Source: Barnesiella viscericola DSM 18177 (GTDB taxonomy: Bacteria; Bacteroidota; Bacteroidia; Bacteroidales; Barnesiellaceae). From it: a DNA stretch of 64,000 nucleotides. The notes below the pieces were generated by a model. It was not told the origin of the DNA, made no database searches, and was given only the letters and a program-made list of their open reading frames with translations. The first letter of the stretch is position 1. Each line of letters starts with the position of its first letter. This document shows, in pieces, positions 7,548-62,075 of the stretch. The stretch lies in the NCBI RefSeq assembly GCF_000512915.1, contig NZ_CP007034.1, positions 2,604,501 to 2,668,500 of the forward strand, written 5' to 3'. The position numbers and the translations under genes were made by a program.

Positions 7548-8789
7548 TCAGGATTCTTCTTTTTCTTCGTCGGTAGCGATTTCGTCGTAGTGCTGAAAGA
7601 GGAAATCGTTGTAGGGGAATCGCGTGGTGTGTATCTCCTTGACCCGTTGGTAGAGCAGTGCCTTCAACTCGTCGATGTTTTTCTTCTCGCGGGCCGAGAT
7701 GAAGATGCAGTTGTCGTGCATCTTGGCCATCCAGGTCTCTTTCAGTTCGTCGAGCGAGATGTTCTCGCGGGTGCGGGGAGTGAGGTCGTCGGCCGCTTTC
7801 TCTACGTAGGAGAAGGCATCGATTTTGTTGAATACCAGAATCATGGGTTTGTTGGTCGAGTCGCACACCTCTTGAAGCGTCTTGTTCACCACCTCGATTT
7901 GCTCCTCGAAGGCCGGGTGCGAAATGTCGACCACATGGAGCAGCAGGTCGGCTTCGCGCACCTCGTCGAGGGTCGACTTGAACGAGTCGACCAGGTGGGT
8001 GGGCAGTTTGCGGATAAAGCCTACGGTATCGGAGAGCAGGAAGGGCAGGTTGTCGACAATCACCTTGCGCACCGTGGTGTCGAGGGTGGCAAAGAGTTTG
8101 TTCTCGGCAAAGACCTCGCTTTTGGCCAGCAGGTTCATGAGGGTCGACTTGCCCACGTTGGTATATCCCACCAGCGCTACACGTACCAGTTTGCCGCGGT
8201 TTTTGCGCTGGATACTCTTCTGGCGGTCGATGCTTTTCAGCTCCTCTTTCAGATGCGAAATCTTGTCGAGGATAATACGGCGGTCGGTCTCGATTTGCGT
8301 CTCACCGGGACCACGCATGCCGATACCGCCCCGTTGACGTTCGAGGTGAGTCCACAGGCGGGTCAGGCGGGGGAGCAGGTATTGATATTGAGCCAGTTCG
8401 ACCTGCCGTTTGGCGTTGGCCGTCTGGGCCCGTTTGGCAAAGATGTCGAGAATGAGGCTGGTGCGGTCGAGAATCTTCACTTGCAGCTCCTTCTCGATGT
8501 TCTGCACCTGCTTGGCCGAGAGGTCGTCGTCGAAGATGACCATACCTATCTCGTTCTCGTCGATGTAGTTTTTTATCTCGGCCAGCTTGCCTGCGCCGAC
8601 AAAGGTGCGGGAGTTGGGCATGTCGAGCCGTTGCAGGAATTTCTTCACGGGCTCGGCTCCGGCGGTCTCGGCCAGGAAGGCCAGCTCGTCGAGGTACTCG
8701 TTGGCTTTCGCCTCGTTCTGGGTGTTGGTAATCAGTCCTACCAGGACGGTGCGTTCGGTTTCTTCTTGGGTTAGGATAAATTCTTTCAT
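7548..8789 (-). CDS. hflX: GTPase HflX
   Basis: Ribosome-associated GTPase that splits stalled 70S ribosomes and acts in stress recovery. The 413-residue protein has the N-terminal HflX domain, the family signature GPGETQIETDRR (residues 160-171), a P-loop GYTNVGKS (208-215), the switch II motif DTVGF and the specificity motif NKID. Length is typical. It is the likely first gene of an hflX-DUF4954 unit. The 54-bp gap upstream, toward the metalloprotease gene, holds no clear TAnnTTTG element. Confidence 0.96.
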   Translation of the reverse strand: MKEFILTQEETERTVLVGLITNTQNEAKANEYLDELAFLAETAGAEPVKKFLQRLDMPNSRTFVGAGKLAEIKNYIDENEIGMVIFDDDLSAKQVQNIEKELQVKILDRTSLILDIFAKRAQTANAKRQVELAQYQYLLPRLTRLWTHLERQRGGIGMRGPGETQIETDRRIILDKISHLKEELKSIDRQKSIQRKNRGKLVRVALVGYTNVGKSTLMNLLAKSEVFAENKLFATLDTTVRKVIVDNLPFLLSDTVGFIRKLPTHLVDSFKSTLDEVREADLLLHVVDISHPAFEEQIEVVNKTLQEVCDSTNKPMILVFNKIDAFSYVEKAADDLTPRTRENISLDELKETWMAKMHDNCIFISAREKKNIDELKALLYQRVKEIHTTRFPYNDFLFQHYDEIATDEEKEES

Positions 8790-8843
8790 ATGTCGTACTC
8801 CAAAGAGGTACCTTACAGATAATGCTTTTGGTTACCTCTTTGT

Positions 8844-11381
8844 TTAGTTGTTAAACAGTTTTTCAATGTGGATAATCTGGTAGTCATAGAAATTGCGGGT
8901 GGCGCTGTCGGCCGTGGCGGCTCTCTTCTGCTTGTAGAGCGAGAGTATCTTTTTGAGGGCGCCGGTCATGTAGGGAGCCATCTCGGCCACAGACATCGAG
9001 GGCCCCGTCGTGAACCGGGTAAACGATTGCTCCCCGACCTGGTGGCACAGCGCATGGCTGCACGGGAAGGGTGCCCCGTCGAGGTCGATGTCGTCGGTCA
9101 GGGGATTCAGGTTTATCTTTACGGGTGTCCCTTGCAGGTCGGAGTATTGTATGAGTTGCTCGATGGTTTCGCTTTGCAGGTCGCGCTCCACGTCGTTCAA
9201 CTTCCGTCCCTGGTAGGTAGCCTTGAATACCTCGGCAATTACGTCGTTGAGGTAGCTGTCGACGGTGTAGTTTTTGACCGGGTTGATGGCTCCGCCCTCG
9301 TGGATACGGAAGAGGGTAGACGGCTTGATGAGGCTGGACGGGAGCATGCGGTGTATCGCGCTGGCATAGTTGACGTTGGCACCGATACGTTGCAGCAGGT
9401 CGGCGGGAGTGAGCCAGTCGCGATAGGTGCGGGCCTGGTTGAGAATCCATTTCAACGCCTTCCGCTGGGTAGCCTTGTCGAGGTAGATGTAGGGCAACGT
9501 GTCATCGCCCTGGCGCACCTCGGTATAGAGCACCCCGCCGATGTAGGGTATTACGTGGCGCAGGTGGCGGTTGTACTGTTGCACAAGAGCCGAGTATTCG
9601 TCGCGTATCGTGCGGTAGTCTTTCCCCTCGTCGAAGAACCATTGCTCAAAGTTCTTTACGATGAGTTTGAGATTCGAGATGGCCATCTCACCGGCCTTGA
9701 AGTGGTCGTTGCTCAGGTCCTCGGTCTGGTCGGTAGGGTCGTAGGTATCGGGGTATTGTTGGGCCCCGAAGGTGTACATGGGGTCGGCCTTCTTCTCGGC
9801 AATCCAGCGGTCGAGAGTAGCCACTTCGTCCTGCGGGGTGGGGGCGTCGGCAATAAGTCGGTAGCCCCAGTTGATGGCATAGATGTCGTAGACTCCCAAG
9901 ACGGGCGGGGTGAGGCGCACGCCGCGTTCATAGTCGCCCGGCTGAGCCACAAAGTTGTTGCGGGCATAGTCCATGATACTGGGTGTGGTTCCGTATTTCT
10001 GGGTGAACGACGGGCTGCGCAGCGAGTCGATGGAGAACGCGTAGCTGGCCCCCATGTTGTGCATGAGCCCCAGGGTGTGGCCTATCTCGTGTGAGGCTAC
10101 GTAGCGCAGCGACTCGCGCATGACGTCGTTGTCGAAAGTCTCTTGTCTCACTCGCGGGTCGACGGCTCCCGTCTGGGCAAACCGCCAGTTGTGTACCAGC
10201 GAGATGACGTTGTGGTACCAGATGACATCGGCCGTGAGTATCTCGCCGCTGCGAGGGTCGACATAGCTCGGACCCATGGCATTGGCAATATCGGTCACGG
10301 CATATTTCACACAACTGTACCGCATGTCGTCGGGGTCGAAATCGGGGTCGTTCTTCGGGTAGTCGCGGGCGATGACGGCATTTTTGAACCCGGCGGCCTC
10401 AAAGGCGGTGTTCCAGTCCTCCACACCCTGTTTCACGATGTCGCGCCACTTGTCGGGGAAGGCACTGTCGACGTAGAAGACAATCGGTTTCTTGGGTTCT
10501 ACCAGTTCGCCTCTGAGGTAGGCTTCGCGATCTTCGTCCTTCGGTTCGAGCCGCCAGCGGTGAATGTATTGTGTGCGGTCTATGCGGTCCTTGTCGCTGG
10601 TATAGATGTTTTTGGTACTCGAAAAGAAGCCCACTCGGCGGTCGTAGATGCGGGGACGCATGGGTTGCTCGGGCAGCAGTACCAGCGAGCGGTGCATGGT
10701 CACGGTGCAGATGTTGTCGCCGGTGAAACTGAGCACCGAGCGAATCTCACAGTTTTGCGGGAAACTCTTGACTCCCAGAATATAGGAGTTGGCCGCCGTG
10801 TAGGTGCCCGTCTTTATCTTGGACGAGGGCTTGCTGGGCATGGGGCTGATAATCTTCTCGTTGGTCTTGAAGAAGTCGCTCATGTCTACCACCACGTCAT
10901 TCCCGTTCTTGGCCTCGATTTTGAAGGCCTTGATGATAGGGTCGCCGAAATTCCGGTCGAACGAGGCGGCGATGGGGTCCTTGGGGTCGATGATGTTGGC
11001 GTGTTGCACCAGGTGCATGAAGAGCGATTGCTCATTCTTGCTGAACCTGATCATAAAGGGGTCGGTGGTCATCTCGCCGGCCACGAATAGCTTGGGGTCG
11101 GTTGTGGTGGCTACCCGGCTCGACAACAGGAAGGTGCGGCTCATCAGCGAGTCGGGCACCTCGACCAGCAGCTTGTTGTCGGTCGTCAGGTGCAGGGTGA
11201 ACATACCCTTTTGTGTTTTGGCTCCCTTGATGAGTTTGTCGTATTTCGATTCTTGAACGGTCGTGTCTTTAACCTGTTCTTTTCGGTTCTCTTTCTTACT
11301 CTTTCTTTTGGCGTAGCAGTTTGCCGGAGAGGCTCCGGCAAGAAGCAGGGCCGTCAGCAGGGCCCATGTCAATTTTTTCAT
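8844..11381 (-). CDS. Exported zinc-dependent metalloprotease, DUF5117/DUF5118 family
   Basis: Predicted periplasmic or surface metalloprotease of 845 residues. It starts with a signal peptide (MKKLTWALLTALLLAGASPANCYA) and then a Lys-rich linker. The extended zinc site HEIGHTLGLMH places His431, His435 and His441 as ligands and Glu432 as catalytic base (metzincin-like HExxHxxGxxH). N-terminal regions resemble the DUF5118-DUF5117 modules common in Bacteroidetes. Substrate unknown. It has its own promoter at 11416-11447 and no close partner; hflX follows 55 bp after its stop. Confidence 0.9.
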   Translation of the reverse strand: MKKLTWALLTALLLAGASPANCYAKRKSKKENRKEQVKDTTVQESKYDKLIKGAKTQKGMFTLHLTTDNKLLVEVPDSLMSRTFLLSSRVATTTDPKLFVAGEMTTDPFMIRFSKNEQSLFMHLVQHANIIDPKDPIAASFDRNFGDPIIKAFKIEAKNGNDVVVDMSDFFKTNEKIISPMPSKPSSKIKTGTYTAANSYILGVKSFPQNCEIRSVLSFTGDNICTVTMHRSLVLLPEQPMRPRIYDRRVGFFSSTKNIYTSDKDRIDRTQYIHRWRLEPKDEDREAYLRGELVEPKKPIVFYVDSAFPDKWRDIVKQGVEDWNTAFEAAGFKNAVIARDYPKNDPDFDPDDMRYSCVKYAVTDIANAMGPSYVDPRSGEILTADVIWYHNVISLVHNWRFAQTGAVDPRVRQETFDNDVMRESLRYVASHEIGHTLGLMHNMGASYAFSIDSLRSPSFTQKYGTTPSIMDYARNNFVAQPGDYERGVRLTPPVLGVYDIYAINWGYRLIADAPTPQDEVATLDRWIAEKKADPMYTFGAQQYPDTYDPTDQTEDLSNDHFKAGEMAISNLKLIVKNFEQWFFDEGKDYRTIRDEYSALVQQYNRHLRHVIPYIGGVLYTEVRQGDDTLPYIYLDKATQRKALKWILNQARTYRDWLTPADLLQRIGANVNYASAIHRMLPSSLIKPSTLFRIHEGGAINPVKNYTVDSYLNDVIAEVFKATYQGRKLNDVERDLQSETIEQLIQYSDLQGTPVKINLNPLTDDIDLDGAPFPCSHALCHQVGEQSFTRFTTGPSMSVAEMAPYMTGALKKILSLYKQKRAATADSATRNFYDYQIIHIEKLFNN

Positions 11382-49845: not shown

Positions 49846-50274
49846 TTACCGAAATACCAGATATTTGCGGGCAAAGAAGTTCCACAGGTAGACGATGGCC
49901 GCGGCTACTATCTTGGAGAACATGTAGTGGGTGCCGATGCAGTCGGTAAAGAGCCAGATGAGAGCGTCGTTGAGCAGGAGTCCCACCACGCCGATGGAGG
50001 CAAAGAAGAGGAACTCGACCAGTCGGTTCTTGAATTTCGAGTTGCTGAATACCCAGATGCAACTGATAACGTAGTTGACGAGCAGCCCCGAGATGAACGA
50101 GAGGGTGGCCGAGAGCAGGTAGTGCAACCCGGCATACTCGGTGAGAATATAGAGCAGCCCGAAATCGACGACGAAGGCAAAGCCGCCCACGAAGAAATAG
50201 CGTACGAACTGCACGAGCAGTCGGTCGGTGGTGCCATAGAACAGGCGTTTGAAGAGGTGCCCCGGTTTCATCAT
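49846..50274 (-). CDS. GtrA-like membrane protein (putative lipid-linked sugar flippase)
   Basis: 142-residue GtrA/DPMS-type protein with four membrane helices ([91 protein letters not shown]). The family is associated with moving polyprenyl-phosphate-linked sugars across the inner membrane. Start 50274 (MMKPGH) is used; the frame is open farther upstream, but that part overlaps the next gene. It overlaps the FAD enzyme gene by 4 bp and is the last gene of a three-gene unit. Confidence 0.88.
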
Positions 50275-51851
50275 TTGCTTTCGTGGTATTCTTCTTCGGT
50301 ATTGACCGACCACACGGCGCTCTTGTCGGTGTTGCCGGCGGCAATGTGGTCGACGGCTACCATGGCGGTCATCATCGAGTGGTCCATGTTGTTGTAGCGG
50401 TGCTGCCCGTTGCGGCCGATGCACCACAGGTTTTCGATGCCGTTGAGGAACTCCTTCACCCGGTCGAGCTCATAGTAGCTGCCGAAGTAGGAGGGGTAGG
50501 CCTTCTTGACCTTGATGCGTACCGAGTCGAGTACATCGGCGGGGTCGATGATACCGATTTTGGCCAACTCGCCCACCGCCATGTCGATGAACGCCCGGTC
50601 GTCCATCTGCCAAAAGGCGTCACCCTCGGTGCAGAAGTATTCGAGTCCTATCCACACGGTATTCTCGTAGTTCTTGACCAGATAGGGCGACCAGTTGTTG
50701 AAGACTTGCAGGCGGCCGATGCGCACGTCGCGCTCCTGAATGTAGATCCAGGTGTCGGGTATGCGGTTGGCAAAGGTCTTGATGCGGGTCTGATTGTCGA
50801 TGGTGAGGCGTTTCATGAGCAACCCCACGGTGATGAAGTCGCGGTAGGGCAGGTCGCCGGCAATGCGTTTTACCTCGTCGGGTACCTCGATGCCCCGAAT
50901 CGATTGCACGAGGTCTTTGAGAGGAAGTGACGAGAGCAGGTAGTCGCAGGGAACCTCCCGGCGTTCGCCTTGGGCATTCTCGACGGTGACGCTCGTCACG
51001 CGGTTGTTCTCGACGTGAATCTCCTTCACGGGTGTTTCGGTAATCACCTCGCCGCCCCGTTGGCGTACCTCGTCGGCCACGGTCTCCCACAGTTGCCCGG
51101 GCCCCAGTTTGGGATAGACAAATTGTTCGATAAGCGAGGTTTCCACCTCTTTTATATTCTCCTTTTTGGAGAAACTCTTTTTGAGCATGTCTTTGAGAAT
51201 GGCAAAGATCGACAGCCCCTTCACCCGTTGGGCACCCCAGTCGGCCCCCAGTTTCGAGGGGTGTACGCCCCACACCTTCTCGGTATAGTCCTCGAAAAAC
51301 ATGCGGTAGAGCGGTTTCCCGAAGCGGTTGATGTAGAAATTTTCGAGCGAGGTTTCGGGCTTCTTGAAGAAGACCGACCACAGGTATCCGCACCCGGCCT
51401 CGATGGTGCGCACCAGCCCCATGTTGGCGAAGGTCTGCCATTTGAGCGAGATGGGATAGTCGAAAAACTTGTGCAGGTAGAAGATGCGCGATATGCGGTT
51501 GCGCACCAGCATCACGCGGTCGCACTGTTCGGGGTCGGGGCCGTTGGCAGCAAAAGTCTTGTCGGTCGTGTGTAGCAGCTTGTCGTCGAGCGAGGGAGCC
51601 CCTTGCAGCGGCATGATCTCGTCCCACCAGTCGGTCACCCGCTGACTCTTGGAGAAGAAGCGGTGCCCCCCGATGTCCATGCGGTTCCCGTGGTAGCGCA
51701 CGGTGCGCGAGATGCCTCCGATTTCGCCCGATTCCTCAAAAACGACAGGGTGAATGTCGGTATGTTTGAGCAGTTCATACGCGCCGGTAAGTCCCGCAGG
51801 GCCGGCTCCGGCGATAACCGCCTGTTTCTGTTTCTTGTCGGTAGCGCTCAT
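50271..51851 (-). CDS. FAD-dependent amine-oxidase/UDP-galactopyranose-mutase-like oxidoreductase
   Basis: 526-residue flavoprotein. The N-terminal Rossmann motif [18 protein letters not shown] (G15, G17, G20) with [18 protein letters not shown] binds FAD, and [18 protein letters not shown] is the second conserved block. The overall pattern matches NAD(P)-binding FAD proteins that resemble protoporphyrinogen oxidase and UDP-galactopyranose mutase. No export signal is seen. Being between a GtrA flippase and a GT-C-like membrane protein, it may modify a nucleotide- or lipid-linked sugar; the exact reaction is not known. It lies 3 bp from the upstream gene. Confidence 0.82.
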
Positions 51852-51854
51852 GAG

Positions 51855-53414
51855 TTAGGGGTTGGTTTGTGACAGTTTTTTACGGGCAGCCTCTCGGTCG
51901 AATTTCAACAGATAGGTGTCGGGGTTGGGTATATAGGAGGCGACGAAGAAGAGGTCGTCGTTCTTCTGTATGGCCGGGTAGAGGTAGCGGACGGTCGAAC
52001 TGTATCCAAGCTGGTCGAGAATGACATACTCCACGCCATCGTCGAGCATTTTCTGGATCACGGCCCGGTCGTCCAGCGAGAAGGCATAGCCGGTGACCCG
52101 TGTCCCCGAGAACATGTAGAGCAGTTCGCCTTTACGCGAAGCAACCACCGTTTCGGGCGATACATGTTGTTTCAATACGGCTCCTATCTGGAAGAAGTTT
52201 TGATAGGCCGGCGGGAAGGGCATCTTGTTCATGGTGTGCAACGCTTTGATGTTGCTCACGCTGGTGAGCAGCAACAGGGCCAGAATCCATGGCGAGAATT
52301 TCTGTTTCATATTCAGCCGGCGCATGGCCCACACCACGACCTCGTAGAGCCCCACAAGCAGACCCATGTTCAGGAAGGGAATGAGTGCCGTGATATATCG
52401 GTTCTCGCTGGGGGTGCTGAAGATGGAGATAAGTCCGAAGGTAAAGACGGTGTAGCCGATGAGTACCCAGCGGTATTTACCGAATGCCCAGAATCCTCGA
52501 ATGATAAGGGCTACCAGTATGAGGGCTGCCAGCCACAATCCGAATCCGGCCGGCACCTCGGGGGCATAGTTGACTTGGAAATAGGGAATCACCGAGTTGG
52601 GCAACGCCTTGGATACCAACATGCCCAGCGTGTCGAAAAAGCGTTCGATGATGCCACTCAGGTCGAGCGAGCCATCTTCGGGGCGCCACGGATTCACCTG
52701 CGCTATCGACTCGAAATATCGGCTCTGTTCCATGCCCAGCGCCTTGTTGCGCCAAATCCACGGCAGGCACCCTACGATGAATCCCGCTACCGTAGCGAGT
52801 GCCTCTTTCCACTTTTTGGCACAGAGGAAGAAGAGTACCACCGCGGCAAACAGGGCAACGCCTTGGGTGCGTATGTGGTAGCAGAGCACAACCATCACCA
52901 GCATGGCATAGAAGGCCCAGTCCTTGTAGAAGGGCTTCTCCTTCTTCATCTGCGTGAGCAGGAAGATGGCCGCTGCCGAGACAAAGAAGCATGACATCTC
53001 GCTCATCATCATCGTAGAGAAGTGTAGCACCCGGTCGCTCAGTATGGCAGCACAGGCTCCCACCAGCGCCAGCGAGTCGGGCATCTTGCGTCTGATCATG
53101 AAGAAGAACAGCAGCAGTGCTCCCCCCAGCAGGAAGAGCCCGTTAAGCACCTTTTGCGCCACAACGCTGTCGGTGAAGAATCGTAGCGGGGTCATCAGCA
53201 ACGGATAACCCGGCGGAAAAGCGTTGGTCGGGTGGGTCGTCGGGGCTGAGATGTCGGCATATCCCTGTCCCGAAGCCAGGGCCGAGGCAAAGGTGTAGTA
53301 GCGGCAGTTGTCGCCGTTGATGTCTATCTTCGCATTGAAAATATAGAAGTAGGCACAAGCCCATACCAAGGCCAGCACTCCTATGTAGATGGCGCGATTT
53401 TTAGGCATTTTCAT
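51855..53414 (-). CDS. GT-C-type polytopic membrane glycosyltransferase (GT39-like)
   Basis: 519-residue inner-membrane protein with about ten to twelve helices, and the acidic first periplasmic loop (NAKIDINGDNCRYY) typical of GT-C enzymes that use polyprenyl-phosphate sugars. The motif THPTNAFPPGYPLLMTP follows in the same loop. A soluble C-terminal portion of about 110 residues starts near LLLLTSVSNIKALH. It opens the unit that continues with the FAD enzyme and GtrA. A TATTTTTG element at 53440-53447 (minus) may be its -7. Acceptor and sugar unknown. Confidence 0.78.
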   Translation of the reverse strand: MKMPKNRAIYIGVLALVWACAYFYIFNAKIDINGDNCRYYTFASALASGQGYADISAPTTHPTNAFPPGYPLLMTPLRFFTDSVVAQKVLNGLFLLGGALLLFFFMIRRKMPDSLALVGACAAILSDRVLHFSTMMMSEMSCFFVSAAAIFLLTQMKKEKPFYKDWAFYAMLVMVVLCYHIRTQGVALFAAVVLFFLCAKKWKEALATVAGFIVGCLPWIWRNKALGMEQSRYFESIAQVNPWRPEDGSLDLSGIIERFFDTLGMLVSKALPNSVIPYFQVNYAPEVPAGFGLWLAALILVALIIRGFWAFGKYRWVLIGYTVFTFGLISIFSTPSENRYITALIPFLNMGLLVGLYEVVVWAMRRLNMKQKFSPWILALLLLTSVSNIKALHTMNKMPFPPAYQNFFQIGAVLKQHVSPETVVASRKGELLYMFSGTRVTGYAFSLDDRAVIQKMLDDGVEYVILDQLGYSSTVRYLYPAIQKNDDLFFVASYIPNPDTYLLKFDREAARKKLSQTNP

Positions 53415-57812: not shown

Positions 57813-58227
57813 TGGGTATCGTTGTTTTCTTATAGAGACGTAAAAGTACCGCGTTCAGTTGCAAAAAAACAGTGCAAAAATAAAATTTATTTTGCTACCG
57901 TTCTTATGAATATAGATTTCTTAATATTGTAGGTTTAGTCGTAAGAGACCTAATCATCTTAATTATGAAGTGGTCGATGTTTTTGTTTTACAATTAACAA
58001 TTTCTACGAAATTCCTTGTGGCTTTTCGTATTTAAAATTTAATTTATTTCAGCGATGTATTAGTTTAATTTTGTATTTTTGCGCAGATTTTAATGGATAT
58101 AAAGCGAAAGATTTTTTTATTGAAATTGGGTTATTAAAAAGTGATTGGGGCTTTTGATATAATGGTTTGTGTTTATCCATGAATTGAATAGATAAAATGT
58201 AGCTGAAATTAATAATAAGTTAGGAAT
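57813..58227. other. AT-rich intergenic region between divergent genes
   Basis: 415 bp of very AT-rich DNA. It holds the barrel-gene promoter (TATTTTTG, minus, 57875-57882) and a TATTTTTG element (58074-58081, plus) facing the next gene with only a weak -33 (TTTC). No coding frame or stable hairpin is seen. Confidence 0.5.
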
Positions 58228-59484
58228 ATGATGAAAAAAAGGACTTTGCATTTTTCATTCACAAACGCATTTAATTTCTTGATGTTGTTCTATACACTGT
58301 TGGCGTGCAGGAATCTGTATTGGGATACTATGAAAGAGATGACGGATATTGGTCTTATATCAGAATTCCTTGTCAATTATCAAGGTGGTTTTGCGCGCCG
58401 GGGATTATTGGGTGAGATCTTGTATTGGCTTTGGCAATCATATTCCATGGATCCCATATTGATTATACAGTCGATATCTATTATCTGTTTTTCGGGAGTT
58501 GTTATTTTCTTTGGATATCAATTTTTGAAGAAACGTTATAATTGGTGGATATTACCTTTGGGCTTTTTCTTGGCGAATGGTTGGATTATTCGTAAAGATT
58601 ACCTGATGATTTTGATTCTTGCAGCGATTATATATGGTTATATTCATTTGAAAAAGATCTATCTAAAATTACTTTTTGTAATTCTATTGGAGATTGTTCT
58701 TATTTTTACTCACGAAGCCTTTTTCTTTTTTGGAACACCATTTGTAATACTTTTGTTCTTGAGAGATAAAAATCTAGATGTGAAGATAGGAGTTCGGATT
58801 TTATTCTCTACTTTATTGGTATTGTTGTTCCTTATAGTTTGCTATTATAAAGGAAATAATCAAATAGTAATGAGTATTTCAAATTCATGGAGTCCTTTAT
58901 TCTCTGATCTGGTGCAAAATGGAGGGATTCTCAAATCTCTTAGTTGGGAAACTTTACCAACTATGAAATTCCATTTCCGAGTAAATTTTGTTGAGTCTAG
59001 CTTTGGATTTATAGGTTTAATTATTAGACCTATAACATTGTTCTTTGTTTATTATTTGGCCTCACGAATATTATTTGTGTTTAGGACTCCTCATTCTCAA
59101 TTACAGGATAATGATAAACCTTTGTTGGCTTCTATCCTGATATTTCAATTTATTATGCTCATTCCGATGTTTACAGTATTAAGTTGTGATACGGGAAGAG
59201 TAGTTTTGTACTGGTTATCTTCTTCATTTATTTTCTTTTTATTGATTCCTCGTGAGTTGTTAAAGTACATCTTTCCGCAGTATTTTTTGCGAAGCATTAC
59301 TAAGATAGATCAGAAAATAGATATTCTCCTCCCTCCTACAAAAGGTCTTATGGCTTTGTTGGTTTTAGTTATAACTATGACCCCTGTAGGATTTCATATA
59401 GATGAAGCAATGAGCCGTAGTGTATTTGGCGTTGTAGGAACATTTGTATCTAATATTTTGAGGTCGATAATGATAATATTCTAA
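58228..59484 (+). CDS. AT-rich polytopic membrane protein, GT-C-like
   Basis: 418-residue inner-membrane protein with about ten hydrophobic segments. I do not recognise a named family. The segment LVNYQGGFARRGLLGEILYWL near residue 48, in the first external loop, resembles a motif seen in uncharacterised polysaccharide-related membrane proteins. The size and topology would fit a lipid-sugar glycosyltransferase. Base composition is far more AT-rich than neighbouring genes, suggesting acquisition or an old polysaccharide-locus origin. It lies 2 bp from the UbiA-like gene and heads the four-gene cluster. Confidence 0.7.
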   Translation: MMKKRTLHFSFTNAFNFLMLFYTLLACRNLYWDTMKEMTDIGLISEFLVNYQGGFARRGLLGEILYWLWQSYSMDPILIIQSISIICFSGVVIFFGYQFLKKRYNWWILPLGFFLANGWIIRKDYLMILILAAIIYGYIHLKKIYLKLLFVILLEIVLIFTHEAFFFFGTPFVILLFLRDKNLDVKIGVRILFSTLLVLLFLIVCYYKGNNQIVMSISNSWSPLFSDLVQNGGILKSLSWETLPTMKFHFRVNFVESSFGFIGLIIRPITLFFVYYLASRILFVFRTPHSQLQDNDKPLLASILIFQFIMLIPMFTVLSCDTGRVVLYWLSSSFIFFLLIPRELLKYIFPQYFLRSITKIDQKIDILLPPTKGLMALLVLVITMTPVGFHIDEAMSRSVFGVVGTFVSNILRSIMIIF

Positions 59485-59486
59485 TT

Positions 59487-60368
59487 ATGAAAGATCTAAT
59501 CCTTTTGTTACGGCCCCACCAATGGGTAAAGAACGGATTTGTTTTTTTACCCTTGTTTTTTTCGGGACAGATTTTGAATATAGACTATCTCTTGGCCACG
59601 GTAGTTGCTTTTTTTTCATTCAGTTTTGTGGCAAGTTCGATTTATTGTTTCAATGATATATGGGATGTTGAGGCGGACCGGAAGCATGCCAAAAAGCGTT
59701 TCCGCCCCATCGCTTCGGGTCGTGTATCGAAACGTGCGGGTTATGGTTTGATGATTGCCATGGTTGTCTTATCCATAGTGTTGGCAGGTTGCTATTTCCG
59801 AGGCGATGTACTGTATCGGGTCCTAGGAATATTGTTGTTTTACTATGTGATGAATATAGCCTATTGTATCAAGCTCAAAAATTTTGTCCTTGTCGATGTT
59901 TTCATTATTGCCGTCGGTTTTGTGTTAAGAGTTCTCCTGGGAGGAGTCGTGACCGGTATATGGGTATCGCATTGGATTGTGCTCATGACTTTTCTGCTGG
60001 CTCTCTTTCTGGCATTTGCCAAGCGAAGAGACGATGTCGTGGTATACGAAGAGACCGGCGTATTGTTGAGAAAGAAGGTCAATCGGTATAACTTGGAGTT
60101 CATGAATCAGGTGATAACCATTTTGGCAACGATAATCATGGTGTGTTATATCATGTACACGGTGTCGGAGGAGGTGGTTTCCCGTATGGGGTCGCCTTAT
60201 TTGTATGTGACTTCTGTCTTTGTGCTGGCCGGGTTGATTCGCTATTTGCAGTTGACGATTGTCGATGTAAAGAGCGGTAGTCCTACCCGCGTCTTGATGC
60301 ACGACCGGTTTATACAGTTGTGTATTGTGGCCTGGATATTGTCATTCTTGATAATAATTTATTTCTGA
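59487..60368 (+). CDS. UbiA-family polyprenyl-phosphate phosphoribosyltransferase
   Basis: 293-residue inner-membrane prenyltransferase. The opening LLRPHQWVKNGFVFLPLFFSGQ and the Mg-binding motif NDIWDVEAD (residues 56-64) followed by RKHAKKRFRPIASGRV are the features of the decaprenyl-phosphate 5-phosphoribosyltransferase branch (Rv3806c-like) rather than UbiA/MenA quinone enzymes. It would attach phosphoribose from PRPP to a polyprenyl phosphate. About eight to nine helices. Packed between a GT-C-like protein (2 bp) and a HAD phosphatase (1 bp). Confidence 0.87.
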   Translation: MKDLILLLRPHQWVKNGFVFLPLFFSGQILNIDYLLATVVAFFSFSFVASSIYCFNDIWDVEADRKHAKKRFRPIASGRVSKRAGYGLMIAMVVLSIVLAGCYFRGDVLYRVLGILLFYYVMNIAYCIKLKNFVLVDVFIIAVGFVLRVLLGGVVTGIWVSHWIVLMTFLLALFLAFAKRRDDVVVYEETGVLLRKKVNRYNLEFMNQVITILATIIMVCYIMYTVSEEVVSRMGSPYLYVTSVFVLAGLIRYLQLTIVDVKSGSPTRVLMHDRFIQLCIVAWILSFLIIIYF

Positions 60369-60369
60369 T

Positions 60370-60969
60370 ATGGCGAAGAGAATTGTGGCGACGTTTGATT
60401 TCGATGGGACGATTACTCGCAAAGATACCTTATTGGAATTTATTAAATTTGTAAAGGGCGCGCCTGCTCTTTACGGAGGCCTATTGAGGTATGCTCCTTT
60501 GTTGGTCGCCTACAAGTTGGGAGTGTATCCCAACTGGAAAGTAAAGCAGAAGTTTTTCTCTCGCTTTTTCAGGCAGATGCCATACGACGAGTTTTGCCGG
60601 TGGGGGGAGCGTTTTGCCGGCTCCGTAGACCAAATGATCAAGCGTCCGGTTTTTGAGAAACTGTTGCAACATGTGCAGCATGTCGATGACGTATATATTG
60701 TCAGTGCCAGCGTGAAAGAGTGGATTTTACCCTGGGCTCGAAAGGCGGGGGTGACTCATGTAATTGCGACCGAGGTGGAGGTTGATGATCGAGGTCGGTT
60801 GACCGGGCGATTCTCTTCCCGAAATTGTTACGGACAAGAGAAGGTAAACCGATTCCTGGCCGAGGAGCCTCGGCGGGAGGACTATTATCTGTATGCCTAT
60901 GGTGATAGTCGGGGCGACCGGTATATGTTGGATTTGGCCGATCGGGCTATCTGGTGTAAAAAGATGTAA
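60370..60969 (+). CDS. HAD-IB family phosphatase
   Basis: 199-residue cytoplasmic HAD hydrolase. Motif I TFDFDGTITRKDT has nucleophile D10 and D12; motif II is in IVSASVKEW; motif IV is YGDSRGDRYMLDLAD. HAD-IB members include phosphoserine phosphatase-like enzymes. Because it sits 1 bp after the phosphoribosyltransferase gene, removal of the 5-phosphate from polyprenyl-phosphoryl-phosphoribose is the natural hypothesis. No export signal, so it would act on the cytoplasmic face. Confidence 0.88.
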   Translation: MAKRIVATFDFDGTITRKDTLLEFIKFVKGAPALYGGLLRYAPLLVAYKLGVYPNWKVKQKFFSRFFRQMPYDEFCRWGERFAGSVDQMIKRPVFEKLLQHVQHVDDVYIVSASVKEWILPWARKAGVTHVIATEVEVDDRGRLTGRFSSRNCYGQEKVNRFLAEEPRREDYYLYAYGDSRGDRYMLDLADRAIWCKKM

Positions 60970-60971
60970 GT

Positions 60972-61322
60972 ATGATTTATCTGTTGGCTTTTATCAGTAT
61001 TTTGTTGGGAGCCGTGGCCCAATATTTCTTGAAGATGGGTATGACCAATTGGGCCTTGAAAGGTTCTGTGGGTGAGATGCTTCGACTCCTTTTTCACAAT
61101 TACTACCTGTGGAGTGGCATTCTGTGCTATGGCGTGAGTATGCTCTTTTGGCTTTATGTGCTGTCGCGAATGGAGTTGAGTAAGGCCTATCCGATGGTGA
61201 GTCTGGGGTATGTTATCACGTTGTTGATTGGCTATTTCTTGCTGAATGAACCGCTGAGTTACCCCAAGGTAATAGGAATTGTTTTGATTGTGGCCGGGGT
61301 TTGTTTTATCGCACGCGGTTAA
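60972..61322 (+). CDS. SMR/EmrE-type four-helix transporter
   Basis: 116-residue membrane protein with four helices, similar to the SMR/DMT superfamily and to ArnE/ArnF lipid-sugar flippase subunits. Visible features are LGAVAQYFLKMGM in helix 1, a membrane Glu in MELSKAYPMVSLGYVITLLIGYFLLNEPLS, and a terminal helix IGIVLIVAGVCFIA. Its place after the UbiA-like and HAD genes (2 bp gap) suggests it moves a lipid-linked sugar across the membrane rather than exporting drugs. Confidence 0.82.
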   Translation: MIYLLAFISILLGAVAQYFLKMGMTNWALKGSVGEMLRLLFHNYYLWSGILCYGVSMLFWLYVLSRMELSKAYPMVSLGYVITLLIGYFLLNEPLSYPKVIGIVLIVAGVCFIARG

Positions 61323-61332
61323 TACCAAAAGG

Positions 61333-61363
61333 TTGTACGAGCCGACGAGATGTCGTATCTTTG
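61333..61363 (+). promoter_or_regulatory. Promoter of the RluA-family gene
   Basis: GTTG (61332-61335) and TATCTTTG (61356-61363) with 20 bp between; predicted start near 61370, 16 nt before the ATG. Confidence 0.7.
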
Positions 61364-61385: not shown

Positions 61386-62075
61386 ATGGAGGTGCTCTAC
61401 GAAGACAATCACGTGATTATCGTCAACAAGACCTGCTCTGAGATTGTGCAGGGCGACAAGACGGGTGACACGCCGCTGAGCGAGATGGTGAAGGCGTGGC
61501 TGAAAGAGAAGTACGACAAGCCGGGGAATGTCTTCGTGGGGGTGACTCACCGTCTCGACCGTCCCGTGAGCGGACTGGTCGTTTTTGCCAAGACGAGCAA
61601 AGCGCTCACCCGGCTGAACGACATGTTCCGCAACGGCGAGGTGAAAAAACAGTATTGGGCTATCGTCAAGCATGCCCCCGAGCAGGAGAGCGGTGAACTG
61701 GTACACTATCTCGTGCGTAACGAGAAGATCAACAAGTCGGTGGCTTATGACCGGGAGCGCCCGGGAGCGAAGCGGGCGGTACTCGATTACCGGGTGTTGG
61801 CACGTAGCGACCGCTACACGTTGCTGGAAGTCAACTTGAAAACGGGCCGTCATCATCAGATTCGCTGTCAGTTGGCCAAGATCGGTTCTCCGATCAAGGG
61901 CGATTTGAAGTACGGTGCCGAGCGCTCTAATCCCGACGGCGGTATTTCGCTGCATGCCCGCCATGTCGAGTTTATCCACCCCGTGTCGAAGCAGCTCATC
62001 AGCGTGACTGCTCCCGTACCTGACGATAATCTGTGGAAGGCTTTCGAGCAGATGGTCGAGGGCGAGAATCAATAA
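61386..62075 (+). CDS. RluA-family pseudouridine synthase
   Basis: 229-residue RNA-modifying enzyme converting uridine to pseudouridine in rRNA or tRNA. The catalytic motif HRLDRPVSG contains Asp58; other family segments are VLYEDNHVIIVNK, KQYWAIVKH and TGRHHQIRCQLAKIGSPIKGD. There is no N-terminal S4 domain, so it is the short RluA/RluC-catalytic form. The target nucleotide cannot be assigned. Single gene with its own promoter, followed by palindromic repeats. Confidence 0.94.
   Translation: MEVLYEDNHVIIVNKTCSEIVQGDKTGDTPLSEMVKAWLKEKYDKPGNVFVGVTHRLDRPVSGLVVFAKTSKALTRLNDMFRNGEVKKQYWAIVKHAPEQESGELVHYLVRNEKINKSVAYDRERPGAKRAVLDYRVLARSDRYTLLEVNLKTGRHHQIRCQLAKIGSPIKGDLKYGAERSNPDGGISLHARHVEFIHPVSKQLISVTAPVPDDNLWKAFEQMVEGENQ

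Follow-up and report, generated by a model that had tools for sequence, protein, structure and literature searches.

Kelly et al. (2024; PMC11127046) describe, in the main text of their paper, a route to surface ribofuranose in Citrobacter youngae O1, in which polyprenyl-phosphate-ribofuranose is made by a fused HAD-UbiA protein (ORF15) and its sugar is transferred by a GT-C enzyme of family GT136 (ORF12), with a MATE protein (ORF14) as the presumed flippase; the evidence came from membranes, farnesyl-phosphate substrates, and mutants. C. youngae O2 has the same components and an SDR epimerase (ORF13) for xylofuranose, and candidate arabinofuranose systems carry DprE1/DprE2 homologues (PMC11127046). 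We analyzed 64,000 nucleotides of Barnesiella viscericola DSM 18177 (contig NZ_CP007034.1, positions 2,604,501 to 2,668,500; this whole stretch is called the window) and found that four adjacent genes at 58228-61322 probably form an extracytoplasmic pentofuranosylation cassette, one that would deliver ribofuranose via a lipid carrier to an envelope glycan. The pathway, of a kind already described in 2024, is well supported by comparative evidence. Literature searches, judged from listed titles, led to that paper and also listed PMC9235831, on the aromatic prenyltransferase Ubi-297. The main text of Kelly et al. contains no word beginning with "Bacteroid", and its supplement, which holds further candidate systems, may already include some of the loci discussed below. 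The four genes are as follows:

58228..59484, plus strand: GT-C-like membrane protein of 418 amino acids, predicted pentofuranosyltransferase (open reading frame, ORF; AlphaFold, AF2, model; GC content 32.3%)
59487..60368, plus strand: UbiA-family polyprenyl-phosphate phosphoribosyltransferase (PPPRS/DPPRS-like; DPPRS, decaprenyl-phosphate phosphoribosyltransferase) of 293 amino acids (Pfam, NCBIfam, 8j8j match, tree)
60370..60969, plus strand: HAD-IB phosphatase of 199 amino acids, predicted phosphoribose 5-phosphatase (Pfam, NCBIfam, motifs, linkage to UbiA)
60972..61322, plus strand: SMR/EamA (ArnF-like) protein of 116 amino acids, predicted lipid-sugar flippase (Pfam, NCBIfam, linkage)

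The gaps between them are 2, 1, and 2 bp. In the proposed pathway, the UbiA protein would transfer 5-phosphoribose from phosphoribosyl pyrophosphate (PRPP) onto a polyprenyl phosphate (undecaprenyl phosphate being the probable carrier); the HAD enzyme would strip the 5-phosphate to leave polyprenyl-phosphate-ribofuranose; the SMR protein would flip this lipid to the periplasmic face; and the GT-C protein would use it to add ribofuranose to an envelope glycan. A first-pass annotation of the window, made without database searches, had already proposed four near-contiguous genes that make, dephosphorylate, flip, and transfer a polyprenyl-phosphate-ribose or a derived pentose. The ORFs lie exactly where it had placed them, on one strand, and its pathway gains support from the UbiA tree and from the conservation of the gene unit. 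Because a longest-ORF caller overlooked short SMR genes and a codon-based caller overlooked the low-GC GT-C gene, both were combined.

The UbiA protein scores 80.9 bits with Pfam PF01040 (cut-off 34.2), and its best NCBIfam models are three "decaprenyl-phosphate phosphoribosyltransferase" equivalogs, at 214.7, 206.3, and 168.3 bits; the general "UbiA family prenyltransferase" model gives 176.3 bits (cut-off 351). The closest solved structure is the DPPR synthase 8j8j (E=1.3e-41). The sequence patterns from which the first pass had recognized the enzyme are all in place: RPHQW from residue 9, NDIWDVEAD at 56-64, and KRFRPIASG from residue 70. Loop II, N-D-x2-D-x3-D, is intact (N56, D57, D60, D64), and over 30 aligned rows N56 is found in 28, D57 in 28 (one row has E), D60 in 29, and D64 in 29, the rest being gaps. 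These residues are the equivalents of N247, D248, D251, and D255 of C. youngae ORF15, whose loop II Asn/Asp residues were mutated in the published work (PMC11127046). In loop IV, R180 is present in 30 of 30 rows, and Asp183 (D in 23 and E in 7 of 30) stands in place of ORF15 E369, which is reported there to be dispensable (PMC11127046).

Phylogeny, which the first pass had named as a test of its assignment, came out on the side of a phosphoribosyltransferase. A first tree of 49 rows (18 of them outgroup) included some outgroup rows in the wrong frame; a second, cleaner tree had 45 rows (16 outgroup) and excluded the distant rows L064, L066, and a second UbiA protein from the same genome. Outgroup functions were unchecked, and four outgroup rows in the first tree and two in the second were less than half filled and unreliable. 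Both trees keep the UbiA protein together with the DPPRS-like proteins of the order and 8j8j, on the other side from the remaining PF01040 proteins sampled in the phylum (93/99 in the cleaner tree), except that in the cleaner tree one outgroup protein, L163_ub, with a very long branch and a badly filled row, falls on the DPPRS side. There, the 8j8j sequence is nearest to L058, L060, L061, and L062, outside the subclade of the Barnesiella protein.

The HAD protein scores 112.6 bits with PF12710 and 108.7 bits with TIGR01490 (cut-off 98.3), and its motifs are in place: DFDGT at 10-14 (DxD), SAS at 112-114, K158, and GDSRGD at 178-183. The SMR protein passes the cut-offs of both EamA (41.7 bits; 28.2) and Multi_Drug_Res (27.3 bits; 23.7), and the predicted flippase is an SMR/EamA protein, not a MATE protein as in the C. 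youngae prototype. Related cassettes have GtrA in this position, as a separate gene in L102 and L109 and also in L218, while at L042:10384-11337 the HAD phosphatase is fused to a GtrA/DPMS transmembrane domain, which suggests that the dephosphorylation and flipping steps are linked. The swap of SMR and GtrA at one position counts in favor of the proposed pathway.

With UbiA as the query, 33 of the 393 genomes of the order gave matches at E<=1e-3, and the 28 with matches at E<=1e-34 were taken as the DPPRS-like set. A HAD gene lies on the strand of UbiA and within 6 kb in 22 of these 28, directly beside or overlapping UbiA in 16 and at 0.9-2.0 kb in 6; none is near UbiA in G241, G014, G062, G271, and G152, and in G051 it is on the opposite strand. 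As a control, the HAD profile matched none of five loci of this genus that have no cassette and none of 20 GT-C loci with neither UbiA nor HAD as neighbor. A wider draw over the phylum yielded a UbiA match in 138 of 395 genomes at E<=1e-20; the neighborhoods of the best 20 of 27 additional loci contained HAD in 15 and DprE1 in 13.

The GT-C family itself is rarer, being found in 5 of the 393 genomes, four of which also carry UbiA. In G035, G241, and G245, the fetched GT-C loci have no UbiA; the contigs of G035 and G245 are only 4-7 kb long, and at one G241 locus a HAD gene of this cassette's family is about 6 kb away. A single GT-C peptide pattern run against the named-genome collection gave 32 loci, in 11 of which the GT-C and UbiA genes overlap or are separated by no more than 36 bp (L094, L098, L099, L100, L102, L103, L104, L105, L107, L108, and L109). 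HAD is present in 10 of these 11, with the gene order UbiA-GT-C-HAD in L105, and in the eleventh, L103, the contig ends inside UbiA. L106 has HAD but no UbiA beside the GT-C gene, and the other 20 loci have neither. The titles of the 11 loci include Barnesiella (L094 is the Candidatus Barnesiella excrementavium record), Bacteroides sp., Bacteroidales, Muribaculaceae, Porphyromonadaceae, Dysgonamonadaceae, Symbiothrix, Pedobacter, and Confluentibacter; all but Confluentibacter are metagenome-assembled genomes, one of which is titled Clostridium sp. At five other loci (L113, L114, L115, L121, and L124, at about 8090-11200), the GT-C gene follows genes of 242-243 and 331-339 amino acids. In L114, where the gene families were examined, the pair comprises a GT2 protein, its best solved match being dolichol-phosphate-mannose synthase 5mlz (E=8.4e-17), and a STELLO-like protein; the pair in L113 is alike by eye, and those in L115, L121, and L124 were judged by length and position only. 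The L114 genes suggest that a DPM1-like GT2 provides a second type of donor for this GT-C family.

Neither Pfam nor NCBIfam yields a match to the GT-C-like protein at E<=0.01, and a simple scan finds nine hydrophobic segments in it. Its AF2 model is of good apparent quality (predicted local distance difference test, pLDDT, 87.3; predicted template modeling score, pTM, 0.88), and VIA-align (VIA) matches it over its whole length to ALG3 (Z 9.3, 273 residues), PimE (9.1, 258), and AftB (8.9, 299), with oligosaccharyltransferase (OST; 8.5), PglB (7.7), ArnT (7.3), AftA (6.6), and EmbC (6.4) further down. Among the 50 VIA matches listed, the 33 with at least 240 aligned residues are all GT-C enzymes or GT-C-fold subunits, and the other 17 align over at most 145 residues each; PIG-U and the translocon chains are counted among the subunits. 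An alignment of 32 sequences, from which the fragment L125 was excluded, has 16 invariant columns, including G53, G54, R57, R58, K123, H162, E163, S220, W221, D321, and R324, and E46 and D124 are nearly invariant. From the helices of the model and the positive-inside rule, the conserved residues would all be periplasmic, and E46 would sit in the loop that follows helix 1, as is usual in GT-C enzymes. The matches to GT-C enzymes are of moderate Z for a helical protein, which may belong to a family other than GT136.

The cassette appears as an insertion in the genus, approximately as follows:

57890..61330, no strand assigned: inserted island, its start known to within about 30 bp and its end lying between 61323 and 61356

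The GC contents of the GT-C, UbiA, HAD, and SMR genes are 32.3, 43.2, 49.3, and 44.7%, respectively; the window as a whole has 55.6%, and the genes on either side of the island have 55-56%. Of eight further genomes in the genus, five (G003, G004, G005, G007, and G008; L136-L140) have the flanking outer membrane protein (OMP) and RluD-like genes adjacent, 219-329 bp apart, with no cassette between them. G001 has all four genes, its GT-C protein being 78% identical; in G002 there are only RluD-like paralogues of 31-33%, and the site is unreadable. On the upstream side, the gap begins with 56-87 bp that match each of the five empty sites. Upstream of the RluD-like gene, the match extends over 37 bp in L139 and 17 bp in L138; L136 and L137 match over 8 bp, which is at chance level, and L140 not at all. 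The downstream edge is less certain, as the flank match there is convincing in two of the five. A UbiA-HAD pair on a different contig of G003 suggests a separate gain. The RluD-like gene at 61386 was considered as a fifth member and rejected: a copy 90-96% identical is present in seven of the eight other genomes, five of them with it beside an empty site. Ahead of this gene, at 61356-61363, stands TATCTTTG, within the stretch that matches four of the five empty sites, although two of those four matches consist of these 8 bases alone. It resembles a Bacteroidetes -7 promoter box, and the RluD-like gene may therefore keep its own promoter. Membership of the four genes in an O-antigen or capsule cluster was also rejected, none being recognizable around 58-61 kb by name or Pfam in the gene list of the window, most of whose genes were unscanned. 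A phage origin found no backing either: a GT-C scan of viral_contigs gave six pattern matches, none confirmed as a relative, and the sole match to UbiA in the phage collection, MT837543.1 (L217), is an unverified 6.6-kb fecal scaffold labelled "Bacteriophage sp." that carries UbiA-HAD-SMR-epimerase and multi-transmembrane genes and looks like a bacterial polysaccharide locus.

A number of observations weigh against the proposed pathway, the case for which is comparative. The UbiA protein is below the cut-offs of all three equivalogs (214.7 against 234, 206.3 against 207, and 168.3 against 474 bits), and the best NCBIfam model of the SMR protein, ArnF (NF002816), is likewise missed at 69.8 bits (cut-off 99), which is why the terms "DPPRS-like" and "ArnF-like" are used here. 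For the GT-C fold, the VIA scores do not exceed Z 9.3, a range common for helical folds, for which about 13 is advised; a Z of 9.1 is attained as well by an unrelated match over 76 residues; and Foldseek found no match in the PDB at E<=0.001, the best being an archaeal OST at 0.045. An SMR profile match lies within 6 kb of UbiA in only 7 of the 28 loci of the order and in none of the 20 of the phylum, and this GT-C family is near UbiA in only one of the 28, the window itself, and again in none of the 20. Of the 32 GT-C loci, 21 have no adjoining UbiA, some of these being on short contigs. Conservation of all four genes as a unit, a test put forward by the first pass, did not refute its reading, GT-C and UbiA being adjacent in 11 of 32 loci; the complete set, however, is together in only two, L094 and L100. 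The family profiles derive from the very loci that were counted, and the linkage counts lean towards them. Lastly, UbiA-HAD-SMR occupies this site in the close relative G006, whose genome lacks a GT-C of the family, and the GT-C therefore cannot be an obligatory partner; the OMP-UbiA gap of G006 showed no GT-C remnant.

G006 also lends itself to an unlikely alternative, in which UbiA, HAD, and SMR supply lipid-linked ribose for another GT-C, and the 58228 protein acts on a different lipid-linked sugar or as a polymerase. The 21 GT-C loci without an adjoining UbiA and the DPM1-like synthase beside the family in another lineage point the same way; against this, the GT-C gene is no more than 36 bp from UbiA, or overlaps it, in every one of the 11 linked loci, whose titles span several orders. 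A PMT-family GT-C at 51855-53414 of the window could be the other transferase, but PMT also accompanies the empty site in G003 and, truncated where the stretch ends, in G004. The GC content of the GT-C gene, 32.3% compared with 43-49% for the other three genes, counts in favor of this alternative. Other genomes have different membrane proteins in the same cassette: five of eight multi-transmembrane proteins scanned from them match PMT_2, DUF6080, or DUF6044, and three have no match. Such variety is expected of a swappable last step and tells against the alternative.

If the four genes do form a pentofuranosylation cassette, the likely sugar can be read from the epimerase genes. The first pass had noted that DprE1 and DprE2 are lacking in the window, which holds, the sole DprE2-profile match being a FabG-like gene at 54 bits. 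The complete genome has no DprE1 match and only weak DprE2 matches (55, 55, and 35 bits, one of those at 55 being the FabG-like SDR near the cassette), compared with 162.4 bits for the DprE2 of G035; the best match to the cassette-type extended SDR is 32 bits, compared with 739 and 420 where it is real. With no DprE1, no convincing DprE2, and no extended SDR, ribofuranose is the likeliest sugar on present gene content, and this genome-wide survey strengthens the suggestion of the first pass that the transferred sugar may be ribose itself.

Other members of the phylum appear to have other versions. G035 has UbiA-DprE1-DprE2-HAD (L057:9544-13094), with DprE1 at 426.7 bits (cut-off 500) and DprE2 at 162.4 (cut-off 250); the second protein does better with the SDR model NF005489 (290.3). 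UbiA-DprE1-DprE2 sets, mostly with HAD, were seen in 13 of the 20 phylum neighborhoods (L198-L200, L202-L204, L206-L211, and L213), and another was seen on a Flammeovirgaceae plasmid (L219:4998-8021). NCBIfam searches with six of the 13 phylum DprE1 proteins gave 390-439 bits for DprE1, short of the 500 required, with no further family reaching E<=1e-40. Judged by their genes, these sets are probably a polyprenyl-phosphate-arabinofuranose version in Bacteroidota. An extended SDR follows UbiA-HAD-SMR at L039:7378-8352, L041, L043, and L217:2746-3711 (in two frames in L041 and L043); these cassettes are possibly a third, xylofuranose-type version, recalling by description ORF13 of C. youngae O2. 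Both arrangements, together with the report that the GT-C of Kelly et al. accepts ribofuranose and xylofuranose donors alike (PMC11127046), lend something to the next alternative, that the pathway is as proposed and the sugar is arabinofuranose or xylofuranose, made by an epimerase, perhaps of an unrelated kind, whose gene lies elsewhere in the genome. Given the low epimerase scores in the complete genome of the window, we regard this, too, as improbable. A reading of the UbiA protein as an aromatic or heme prenyltransferase of the ordinary kind, in a metabolic operon, is, despite its membership of the broad UbiA family, very improbable and was rejected, because the 4-hydroxybenzoate and heme prenyltransferase models of NCBIfam score only 23-25 bits compared with 214.7 for the phosphoribosyltransferase, and the tree groups the protein with 8j8j; the genome also holds another UbiA-family protein that scores above it with the Pfam model (122 bits compared with 83 in the genome scan).

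A broader proposal, to which we give about an even chance, is that the 58228 protein founds an unnamed Bacteroidota GT-C family that adds alpha-ribofuranose from polyprenyl-phosphate-ribose to a glycan, and that in other lineages uses lipid-phosphate-hexose made by DPM1. It would be one of several unrelated GT-Cs (DUF6080, DUF6044, PMT_2) placed on a shared UbiA-HAD core, with exchangeable slots for the epimerase (none, DprE1/DprE2, or extended SDR) and the flippase (SMR or GtrA), the whole being spread as small islands among gut commensals.

DUF6080/DUF6044 membrane proteins were seen beside UbiA-HAD, at the GT-C position, at L042:11340-14015, L055:11012-12298, and L050:7867-9609; a literature search found no paper naming either family, and from their position they may be pentofuranosyltransferases. 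On the minus strand of the window (50271-53414), a 526-amino acid protein that looks FAD-dependent from its N-terminus is beside the 519-amino acid PMT-family GT-C. A similar-looking protein is near UbiA and a PMT_2 GT-C in L058, L061, and L062.

Should the proposed ribofuranosylation cassette prove true, a route demonstrated in 2024 in an enterobacterium would extend to gut Bacteroidota, an unannotated GT-C family would gain a role, and two DUF families a suggested one. Genes beside UbiA and HAD would then predict which pentofuranose decorates a surface glycan, and the phenotype could be tested directly on the series of empty sites that this genus naturally offers.

Among known systems, ArnE/ArnF with ArnT, whose undecaprenyl-phosphate-L-Ara4N donor is made by ArnC, resembles the cassette in that a lipid-phosphate-pentose is handed to a GT-C (ArnT Z 7.3) and in its SMR-type protein, which among NCBIfam models is closest to ArnF (69.8 bits). 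It differs in that the cassette protein is below the ArnF cut-off, only one SMR gene is present, and the donor would be made by UbiA. The mycobacterial decaprenyl-phosphate-arabinose pathway comprises Rv3806c, Rv3807c, DprE1/DprE2, Rv3789, and the Aft and Emb GT-Cs. The first pass had taken it as the model, and the analogy stands for the first step, with the same enzyme family (8j8j, E=1.3e-41) and the same lipid-phosphate-pentose logic, and it appears to extend to the GT-C fold of the transferases (AftB Z 8.9, AftA 6.6, EmbC 6.4). The Barnesiella genome, however, lacks DprE1 and a convincing DprE2, and has a HAD enzyme where mycobacteria have Rv3807c, described in the main text of Kelly et al. 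as unrelated to HAD phosphatases; Rv3789 is described there as an SMR-family exporter (PMC11127046). GtrABC shares the three-part logic, and GtrA is itself at the flippase position in the related cassettes L042, L102, L109, and L218, but GtrB makes lipid-phosphate-hexose from a nucleotide sugar (PMC11127046), whereas UbiA is predicted here to use PRPP.

The closest precedent, nearer in logic than the mycobacterial pathway and missed by the first pass, is C. youngae O1, in which, according to the same main text, the epimerase-free route has already been shown experimentally (PMC11127046). Both loci have a UbiA protein with the same Asn/Asp motif, a HAD phosphatase, a putative flippase, and a GT-C-type protein, encoded contiguously and with no epimerase. 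They differ in that HAD and UbiA are separate genes here and fused in ORF15; that the putative flippase is SMR/ArnF-like here and MATE there; that the GT-C protein is of 418 amino acids here, compared with 652 for ORF12, which has a C-terminal carbohydrate-binding domain; and that the cassette here is outside any O-antigen cluster recognizable in the window. By analogy with what has been described of that system, the island cassette would be an epimerase-free version of it, with a separate HAD phosphatase, an SMR protein in the flippase position, and possibly a GT-C of another family.

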